From: Hymenobacter monticola
GTDB lineage: Bacteria; Bacteroidota; Bacteroidia; Cytophagales; Hymenobacteraceae
Reading direction: 5' to 3'
Assembly (NCBI RefSeq): GCF_022811645.1
Contig: NZ_CP094534.1
Location: 5,544,016-5,608,015, forward strand
DNA length: 64,000 bases
Shown here: one piece after another, positions 11,114-13,026 of the stretch
Layout of the letters: every line of letters starts with the position of its first letter
Position numbering within the stretch: position 1 is the first letter of the stretch
Notes under the pieces: generated by a model
Databases searched by the model: none
What the model was told of the DNA's origin: nothing
The model's input: only the letters and a program-made list of their open reading frames with translations
Program-made: the position numbers and the translations under genes

Positions 11114-11698
11114 CTACTTTGCGAGCCGCGCTGCCAGTACCCGCTCGGCCTTGAGCAGGCCCGCCACGCTGATGCCATCGGTAATGCGGTCGTCCATGCA
11201 CATGCGCACGGCTTCGGCCAGCGGCAGCTTCCACAGGCGGAGGTCTTCGGTTTCTTCGGGCTCCACGTCGCCTTGGGTCAGGTCTTCGGCCAAGAAAACA
11301 AAGCCCTCCTCGTCGGTCACCGAATTGGAAGTATGGATGCGGGCAATGCGCGTCCAGCGGCGAGCCAGCAGGCCGGTTTCTTCCTTTAGCTCGCGCTGGG
11401 CCGACTCCAGCACATCGCGCTCCACGGGGCCACCGCCCATGGGAATCTCCCAGCTGTATTCGTTCAGCGCGTAGCGGTACTGCCCCACCAGCCAGGTGTT
11501 GCCCTCCGCATCGAGCGGAATAATGCCGATGGCCTTGTTTTTCATACTCACCACGCCGTAGATGCCCCGGCCGCCGCTTGGGTTCAGCACCTGGTCTTCG
11601 CGCACCGAAATCCAGGGGTTGTGGTACTTCACCTCCGAGCTAAGGGTCTGCCAGGGATTGTGGTTTTCGTCGACGACGAGCGCAGGAGAAAGCGACAT
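11114..11698 (-). CDS. NUDIX hydrolase, probably ADP-ribose pyrophosphatase type
   Basis: A 194-residue protein with the Nudix box G-x5-E-x7-REUxEExGU, seen as SAQRELKEETGLLARRW preceded by the Gly-rich GGGP segment (about 94-120). The N-terminal segment (SVREDQVLNPSGGRGIYGVV) and the string AIGIIPLDAEGNTWLVGQYR resemble the ADP-ribose pyrophosphatase/NudF group, which cleaves ADP-ribose to AMP and ribose-5-phosphate. Substrate preference cannot be proven from sequence. The stop codon is directly abutted by an 18-nt half copy of the palindromic core (AACGTCATGCTGAGCGAC, 11097-11113), a possible decayed element. Confidence 0.92.
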   Translation of the reverse strand: MSLSPALVVDENHNPWQTLSSEVKYHNPWISVREDQVLNPSGGRGIYGVVSMKNKAIGIIPLDAEGNTWLVGQYRYALNEYSWEIPMGGGPVERDVLESAQRELKEETGLLARRWTRIARIHTSNSVTDEEGFVFLAEDLTQGDVEPEETEDLRLWKLPLAEAVRMCMDDRITDGISVAGLLKAERVLAARLAK

Positions 11699-11862
11699 AG
11701 GGAAAAATCGATAAAAAGGAGCTGTAAAATTACGTTAGTTAGTGCCGGAGCCACTTGACAATCGTCGGCTGGATGCCGCCATCCGCCGTGTAAGAGCTCG
11801 CGTTGAACGACGAATCGTTGTCATTAATCCAAAAAATATTGCGCCCGGCCCTCCCAGCCTAG

Positions 11863-11870
11863 TATCTTTG
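11863..11870 (+). promoter_or_regulatory. Promoter of the 11.9-kb RNA (TATCTTTG, with TTG upstream)
   Basis: TATCTTTG is an exact TAnnTTTG -7 box. A TTG at 11839-11841 stands 21 nt upstream, matching the Bacteroidota -33 element and spacing. Together with the terminator at 11985-12014 it brackets a short transcription unit with an expected start near 11874-11877. Confidence 0.75.
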
Positions 11871-11874
11871 ACCC

Positions 11875-12014
11875 ATAAGTACCCCCGCACGGGCTGGAAA
11901 TGTGGAAAGGAAGGACCTCTCGTGCGGCGGCGCTCTGGCTGAAAAGGTGGGGTAGACACCTCTAAGCCAGACCCGCCACTTTAAGGCCGTCGCACATGTG
12001 CGACGGCCTTTTTT
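11875..12014 (+). ncRNA. Candidate structured small RNA of unknown class (or 21-codon small-protein mRNA)
   Basis: About 140 nt between a good promoter and a strong terminator, not overlapping any long gene. Pairings seen by eye: stem P1 11885-11891/11921-11927 (CCGCACG/CGTGCGG); stem P2 11934-11940/11965-11971 (TCTGGCT/AGCCAGA) extended by AGGTG/CACCT at 11945-11949/11957-11961, closing loop GGGTAGA; and TACCC at 11880-11884, which can pair with GGGTA of that loop to form a pseudoknot. A competing pairing joins CGGGCTGG (11890-11897) to CCAGACCCG (11967-11975). The same stretch also has a 21-codon frame (ATG 11900, TAA 11963) for a basic peptide with three Trp, beginning MWKGRTSR and ending RWGRHL. 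I see no SRP, tmRNA or RNase P signatures. The 6S-Flavo class should be tested. Confidence 0.6.
11985..12014 (+). terminator. Rho-independent terminator of the 11.9-kb RNA
   Basis: A perfect 24-nt palindrome GGCCGTCGCACA/TGTGCGACGGCC (11985-12008) followed by six T residues. The physical loop would use the central bases. It ends the small RNA unit about 107 nt before the next gene. Confidence 0.93.
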
Positions 12015-12120
12015 GTTGCTTTTGGCCAGCCTGCACGGCCGGGCTTTCAACCCGAACCGGGCTGCCGCCGTACCAACACATACTCCGGCCGCCCACATCC
12101 CGGCCGGCACCTACCCACCC

Positions 12121-12369
12121 ATGGCCCAGTCCAATTCGAAGCCCAACCAGAATTCCAAGCAAGACGAGCACGACCCGCTGTTCAACCTCAAGCACGCCCA
12201 GGCCGAAGCCGACTTGGCCCAGAACACCAACGGCCTCGGCCCCGTCACCAACGAATACGTGACCACCGACGAAGACTCGGAAATTGACGAAGGCCCGCGC
12301 GACAGCCAGGGCCAGCGCCGCGGCGAAACCGACCCCTCGGACGAAGGCAGCACCGCCGGCCGCCATTAG
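12121..12369 (+). CDS. Small acidic hydrophilic protein, function unknown
   Basis: An 82-residue protein with no hydrophobic segment and a strong bias to Asp, Glu, Asn, Gln, Ser and Gly. It looks intrinsically disordered. The middle reads LKHAQAEADLAQNTNGLGPV, followed by YVTTDEDSEIDEGPR and a Gly/Ser tail. Codon use is GC-rich like its neighbours and a strong terminator follows immediately (12383-12441), which supports a real gene. I do not recognise a family with a known function; similar small acidic proteins are common and uncharacterised in this lineage. The ATG at 12121 was chosen; the frame is open further upstream but runs through the terminator of the preceding RNA. Confidence 0.7.
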   Translation: MAQSNSKPNQNSKQDEHDPLFNLKHAQAEADLAQNTNGLGPVTNEYVTTDEDSEIDEGPRDSQGQRRGETDPSDEGSTAGRH

Positions 12370-12382
12370 GCCGCCCGACACG

Positions 12383-12441
12383 AAAAGCGCGGAGCGCAAA
12401 TCCGGCCTTTACTTTGAGCCGGATTTGCGCTCCGCGCTTTT
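12383..12441 (+). terminator. Long-stem terminator between the acidic protein gene and rnhB
   Basis: A 24-bp stem (12383-12406 / 12418-12441) with an 11-nt loop, containing AAAGCGCGGAGCGCAAATCC and its complement, ending in a run of seven T. It stops 9 nt before the rnhB start codon, so rnhB either starts from a promoter within the hairpin or depends on readthrough. Confidence 0.92.
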
Positions 12442-12450
12442 TTTATTCTG

Positions 12451-13026
12451 ATGCTACTCCCCAATTATTCCGGTTTCGCCCTCGAAGCCGGCCTCGACGA
12501 AGCCGGGCGCGGCTGCCTGGCGGGCCCGGTTTTCGCCGCCGCCGTTATTCTGCCTGCCGATTTCAATCCACGCTTCCTCAACGACTCCAAACAGCTCAGC
12601 GCCAAGCGGCGCGAGGCCTTGCGGCCCGAAATCTGTGCCGAGGCCGTGGCCTGGGCCGTCGGCCAGGCTTCCGAAGCGGAAATTGGCAGCCTCAACATTG
12701 CGCAAGCCAGCTACCTGGCCATGCACCGCGCCGTGGCAGCCCTCAGCATTCGCCCCGAACATTTGCTGGTAGACGGCAACCGTTTCCGACCGCTGCCTGG
12801 TTACGAACATACCTGTATCGTTGGAGGCGACGGCCTGTACCGCAACATTGCCGCGGCATCGGTGCTGGCCAAAACCTTCCGTGATGAATACATGACCGCG
12901 CTGGCGGCTGAATTTCCGGAGTACGGCTGGGCGCAGAACGCGGGCTACCCCACGGCGCAACACCGCCAAGCCATTCGGACGCACGGGCCAAGCCCGCACC
13001 ATCGCATGGGCTTCCGGCTGCTTTAG
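12451..13026 (+). CDS. rnhB: Ribonuclease HII
   Basis: RNase HII cuts RNA in RNA-DNA hybrids and starts removal of single ribonucleotides from DNA. The 191 residues include the signature [19 protein letters not shown] (about 13-31) with the catalytic Asp-Glu pair, LLVDGNRF with a further catalytic Asp, and [15 protein letters not shown] with the fourth acidic residue. The length is typical. The start at 12451 comes directly after a terminator hairpin. Its stop is 12 nt from the convergent response regulator gene with no separate terminator. Confidence 0.96.

Follow-up and report, generated by a model that had tools for sequence, protein, structure and literature searches.

What is encoded at positions 11863-12014 of this window, a stretch of 64,000 nucleotides (nt) of Hymenobacter monticola? 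The interval had been described in an earlier note, made from the sequence alone, as a promoter-to-terminator unit for an unassigned structured RNA. As judged from sequence analysis, it encodes, between a promoter and a terminator, a stand-alone structured RNA of about 138 nt, and a real RNA gene almost certainly lies at 11876..12013 (Table 1). The signals first noticed are present: TTG (11839-11841) and TATCTTTG (11863-11870) stand 21 nt apart, and the terminator stem (11983-12010) is a perfect 12-bp palindrome, followed up to 12014 by a run of six T that starts at 12009. A scan of 2.2 kb showed no excess of terminator-like sites (2 found against 3.1 expected) and no E. coli-type promoter; the weight of the gene unit was therefore placed on stem length and conservation.

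The RNA is conserved across the genus. By blastn, 35 of 120 genus genomes matched at E <= 1e-10, with 43 copies. A covariance model built from 41 distinct near sequences (R1) found the RNA in 76/120 genomes at E <= 0.01, and a second model (R2), which was built on 59 sequences and excludes the terminator, found it in 94/120 at E <= 0.001 (92/114 good genomes), at 123 places. Under the strict filters R2 gave no match in 26 of the 120 genomes, whose gaps between the NUDIX and rnhB genes that flank the RNA gene were not inspected; terminator-only blast matches in genomes without the RNA fell at unrelated places and were discarded. Across the order, 33 of 341 genomes (121 genera) matched R2, all of them Hymenobacter. 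Across the phylum R2 matched 5 of 395 genomes; four of these are Hymenobacter, and the single match outside the genus (29 bits, E 0.005) was taken as chance since it has a coding-like frame and no terminator. Five weak R1 matches, with E from 1e-4 to 5e-3, fell in further genera of the family. A pattern of both conserved loop motifs, searched over named species genomes, returned 67 stretches, of which 66 were Hymenobacter by their record titles and one came from a Lachnospiraceae metagenome-assembled genome to which R2 gave no score at E <= 1. One pattern match on a viral contig reached 11.6 bits over just 13 nt and was likewise rejected. As far as searched, the RNA appears confined to Hymenobacter, with the reservation that the filters applied to large sets miss some weak matches and the absence outside the genus is therefore not absolute.

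The upstream region is conserved to different degrees. The motif TAnnTTTG, which PMC7366714 gives as the -7 consensus of sigma-ABfr, stands just upstream of the RNA in 120 of the 121 copies scanned (41 distinct near and 80 diverged), and the unit is therefore not a product of chance. Of the promoter originally proposed, this box is thus widely kept, while the upstream TTG is kept only in part. A near-palindromic element resembling TTGGnCCAA, also found in diverged copies, precedes the -7 box by about 38 nt. Among 120 upstream regions, 21 match all eight of its bases and 28 match seven, so 49/120 reach at least seven, where shuffled upstream regions gave an expected 1.9/120; 14 match just five. 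TTGGnCCAA and TAnnTTTG occurred together at 11 places in 13 genomes, most of which had been picked because their copy holds the exact TTGGnCCAA, and 10 of these places were the RNA gene. The reversed control occurred once in the 13 genomes, and genomes G000, G032 and G031 had no occurrence of the combination. The element looks dedicated to these RNA genes.

Table 1 Features of the RNA gene and its upstream region (window coordinates)
Feature	Position	Strand	Remarks
TTAATCCAAA, weak version (6/8 bases) of TTGGnCCAA	11824..11833	+	relatives have TTGGnCCAA at the same place
TTG, possible -33 element	11839..11841	+	kept in 27/41 near and 2/80 diverged copies
TATCTTTG, -7 element of sigma-ABfr type (TAnnTTTG)	11863..11870	+	120/121 copies
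RNA, about 138 nt	11876..12013	+	ends placed by means of the promoter and the terminator; R2 match 11879-11981, 78.1 bits
UACCCC, 5' strand of possible pseudoknot with 11949-11954	11880..11885	+	near sequences
Hairpin 1, stem 11885-11893/11919-11927	11885..11927	+	8/9 pairs changed on both sides in wide set
UGGAAAGGAAGG in loop of hairpin 1	11903..11914	+	full 12-mer in 95/120 copies
Hairpin 2, helices 11929-11932/11974-11977, 11934-11940/11965-11971, 11945-11949/11957-11961	11929..11977	+	
UGGGGUAGAC, loop motif of hairpin 2 (URGGGURGAY)	11948..11957	+	111/120 copies
Intrinsic terminator with T tail	11983..12014	+	7/12 stem pairs compensated in near set

The computed fold of 11876-12017 has an energy of -64.5 kcal/mol (z -4.03), which none of 200 shuffles equalled, and it contains the hairpin 11934-11971 pointed out before. 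The earlier note had also suggested looking for covarying pairs among aligned homologous loci, and these were found in the stems. Among the 40 distinct rows of the near set, 19 of the 38 pairs changed on both sides, 88 cells were compensated against 19.6 +/- 3.4 in shuffles, and 98.2% of cells were paired against 34-53% for slid versions of the structure; 11 of the 16 pairs in the two helices of hairpin 2 were compensated. The wide set (58 distinct rows) had both-side changes at 16 of 20 pairs (12.7 in shuffles, equalled by 21/500), 137 compensated cells against 51.9 +/- 9.3, and 81.4% of cells paired against 31-51%, the weakest helix being the inner stem of hairpin 2 (61% paired). Because both structures were derived from the alignments tested, the slid control is biased in their favour; the shuffles, moreover, ignore relatedness. 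The stems were nonetheless accepted as supported by covariation, because the excess is large and spread over the helices.

The two special pairings fared differently. TACCC (11880-11884) had been proposed to form a pseudoknot with the loop GGGTA (11950-11954), and the pairing is indeed possible in all 41 near sequences (at least six pairs in 39, five in one and four in one). The variants UGCCCC and UAUCCC keep it through G-U pairs, so changes are one-sided and no covariation was seen; the hairpin-2 loop never varies in the near sequences, which is why no compensation is visible there. Diverged copies have no common register for this pairing. When 5' strands and loops were exchanged among 36 clusters of 60 A2 sequences, native combinations paired better over the whole set (31/10000 permutations as good), with no signal within the near and diverged groups (6555 and 5566 of 10000), and the whole-set signal was accordingly assigned to the split between these groups. 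The two exclusive states that had been envisaged were rejected. Their competing helix CGGGCTGG/CCAGACCCG can be drawn on paper; it costs 12.3 kcal/mol more, its pair probabilities round to 0.0, and among the near sequences, to which the count was confined, it has no compensated cell. Shuffled columns match its pairing of 95.3% (95.2%; 179/500 reach it); that it exceeds slid versions (15-51%) is expected of any two complementary strands that are conserved.

Does the RNA belong to a known class? The Rfam covariance models (4227 families, Rfam 15), which had been proposed as a check, gave no match at the gathering score in the whole window, 6S RNA, signal recognition particle (SRP) RNA and RNase P RNA included. 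ARAGORN found no transfer-messenger RNA (tmRNA) gene there, and the previously remarked lack of tmRNA, SRP and RNase P signatures was thereby borne out. A relaxed scan of 11600-12300 yielded nine chance-level matches, mostly on the terminator, and 14 matches in 10 diverged loci all stayed below the gathering score. Two of these sub-threshold matches touch the RNA: BTnc231 (E 0.27, in L173) and, across the terminator of L099, a threonine leader (E 0.02). Strong inverted repeats in L169 (826-1011) and L120 (4386-4607) gave low E-values with sub-threshold scores for unrelated Rfam hairpin families. Genus-wide conservation, covarying stems and the lack of an Rfam match agree with the idea of a structured RNA outside the catalogued classes.

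The guess of a 6S-type RNA, which would mimic an open promoter and bind RNA polymerase, did not hold up. 6S RNA forms one long rod with a closing stem and a central bubble. The fold supported here is a row of consecutive covarying hairpins whose outer ends do not pair with each other, and the 6S assignment was rejected. The RNA is, like 6S RNA and 6S-Flavo (RF01685), a stand-alone structured RNA, and it is ubiquitous in the genus. The post may moreover be vacant, as 6S-Flavo gave no match at E <= 1 in 10 genus genomes, a result without positive control because 14 control genomes also fell below the cut-off. 6S RNA and its product RNAs have been reported in Bacteroides (PMC7366714). With no Rfam match and no closing stem, a 6S function is most improbable.

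The 123 copies from the 94 genomes point to one ancestral locus per carrier. A NUDIX gene stands beside exactly 94 of them, one per genome; in the window it is the divergent left neighbour (11114-11698, minus strand, Pfam NUDIX), and the right neighbour is rnhB (12451-13026, plus strand, Pfam RNase_HII). For 93 of the 94 NUDIX loci the fetched piece includes rnhB, which follows on the strand of the RNA in 88 and is convergent in 5. The remaining 29 copies are extra ones in 20 of the 94 genomes (1-3 each), so that 12 genomes have two copies, seven have three and one has four. Twelve extra copies share a second recurring locus (L105, L111, L120, L128, L192, L195-L198 and L200-L202), directly downstream of a gene from one and the same cluster, and 11 of them also follow a gene from a second cluster. 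At L196, the one locus scanned, the neighbours match the Pfam families Orn/DAP/Arg decarboxylase and amino-acid kinase with ACT, and the two genes are therefore read as lysA and aspartate kinase. Another group of extra copies lies near an HTH_3 gene. Paralogous genes of about 510 codons enclose the extra copies in L052 and L061; the one of these genes that was scanned has no Pfam match. That of L061 is on a plasmid-like 23.4-kb contig with a Rep3 initiator gene. A mobile origin of the extra copies was rejected, since many others are at recurring loci and plasmid searches found nothing.

This arrangement bears on whether the RNA could act in cis on a neighbouring gene, as a leader or riboswitch. 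The same-strand rnhB at most loci and the 12 copies just downstream of the lysA-type decarboxylase gene would suit such a role. However, the RNA has its own strong terminator, the convergent loci show that it is not a leader of rnhB, other copies adjoin different genes, and the alternative fold is unsupported. Lacking a fixed same-strand downstream gene, a leader was rejected and is considered very unlikely.

The strongest constraint is found in the loops. UGGAAAGGA in the hairpin-1 loop is invariant in the 120 copies scored; these counts omit L051 for a -7 box that lacks one base, although it carries both loop motifs, and two near copies that are identical to others. Both motifs are purine-rich, and they stay fixed while the stems covary, also between paralogs. 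The triplet before the fixed GAAAGG (window 11902-11910) is GUG in 68 copies, AUG in 46 and UUG in 6, and never CUG. A short coding RNA, with a frame starting at this N-U-G, would account for such a restriction. Against it, the frame runs from 4 codons to beyond the terminator with no common end, all 120 copies have GAA as codon 2 and AGG as codon 3 without any synonymous change, and one-base insertions shift the frame in some copies. Coding was rejected on the missing shared end and synonymous change, and there is hardly any prospect of it.

It is also conceivable, if improbable, that hairpin 1 displays a start codon and a purine run complementary to the 16S rRNA 3' tail, by which the RNA would occupy the anti-Shine-Dalgarno (anti-SD) or initiation site of free 30S subunits. 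Using what we take to be the 16S tail sequence, loop 1 paired with a mean of -11.9 kcal/mol against -7.7 for shuffled loops, 7% of which were as good, in a test that amounts to about one observation as the loops are nearly one sequence. Loop 2 showed no excess (39% of shuffles as good). In this phylum the anti-SD is reported to be retained even though the mRNAs carry no Shine-Dalgarno sequences (PMC6847099).

Our leading, still tentative, reading is a genus-specific, partly multicopy small RNA (sRNA) that acts in trans through loop seeds. The RNA gene would be transcribed independently from its own promoter to its own terminator, two stable hairpins would expose the purine-rich loops (the UGGAAAGGA loop and URGGGURGAY), and these would bind C/U-rich segments in several mRNAs by base-pairing, in the manner of sibling sRNA families. 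The analysis shows the gene unit with its stems, conservation, synteny and paralogs; expression, action in trans and base-pairing are what we infer. Multicopy sRNAs with shared seeds are known in Bacteroides (FopS, PMC11697453). Two points weigh against the seed function. A search of 71 genomes for long perfect complements of loop 1 (loop 2 was not searched) gave, among the matches listed, no conserved target: of 30 loci, 12 were the RNA itself, and the other 18 had flanks common only to two pairs of close relatives. A single strong conserved target is thereby made less likely, whereas several short ones would be compatible with the result. Secondly, G-rich loops without tolerated change would equally fit a protein site.

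The latter point leads to a protein-binding RNA, in which an RNA-binding protein of Hymenobacter, perhaps one of the RNA recognition motif (RRM) type, would recognise the fixed loops and be titrated or guided by the RNA. The fixed loops on covarying stems, among paralogs as well, and the missing long loop-1 target are consistent with it, and in Bacteroides a family of multicopy sRNAs is bound by RbpB, an RRM protein (PMC11697453). No candidate protein was identified, no search for RRM proteins having been made, and we regard this explanation as possible but rather doubtful. CsrA is the classical binder of GGA loops. It was found in 0/8 genomes (seven Hymenobacter and one of another genus of the family), with positive controls in E. 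coli, B. subtilis and T. maritima. A sponge like CsrB/RsmZ, which resembles the RNA in having GGA in hairpin loops, was therefore rejected; loop 2 of the window's clade also differs in lacking GGA.

To return to the trans-acting sRNA, the closest known systems are described from Bacteroidota. FopS and GibS, multicopy sRNAs of Bacteroides, are likewise intergenic, with several paralogs and a common conserved segment (PMC11697453, PMC7366714), here represented by UGGAAAGGA and the 29 extra copies, and FopS is also described with a TAnnTTTG promoter and an intrinsic terminator. In contrast, FopS has a single-stranded 5' seed region followed by the terminator only, whereas the Hymenobacter RNA has two covarying hairpins with fixed loops before its terminator. 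There are 14 copies there against 1-4 here, and no Rfam family reached the cut-off here. Rfp18 of Flavobacterium, another genus, is a genus-conserved, strongly folded sRNA with its pairing region in a stem-loop (PMC9723704), a likeness drawn from the description and not from compared sequences. The titles and abstract openings of the open-licence papers retrieved for Hymenobacter and non-coding RNAs contained no description of such an RNA. An RNA at one locus in most Hymenobacter species, with fixed loops, paralogs, its own promoter element and no Rfam 15 match, offers a ready entry to post-transcriptional control in Cytophagales, a sparsely described field.

Between the RNA and rnhB there is a small frame (12121-12369) without a Pfam match. 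It is followed, before rnhB, by a long, perfect-looking inverted repeat with a T run (12384-12446), probably a further terminator.
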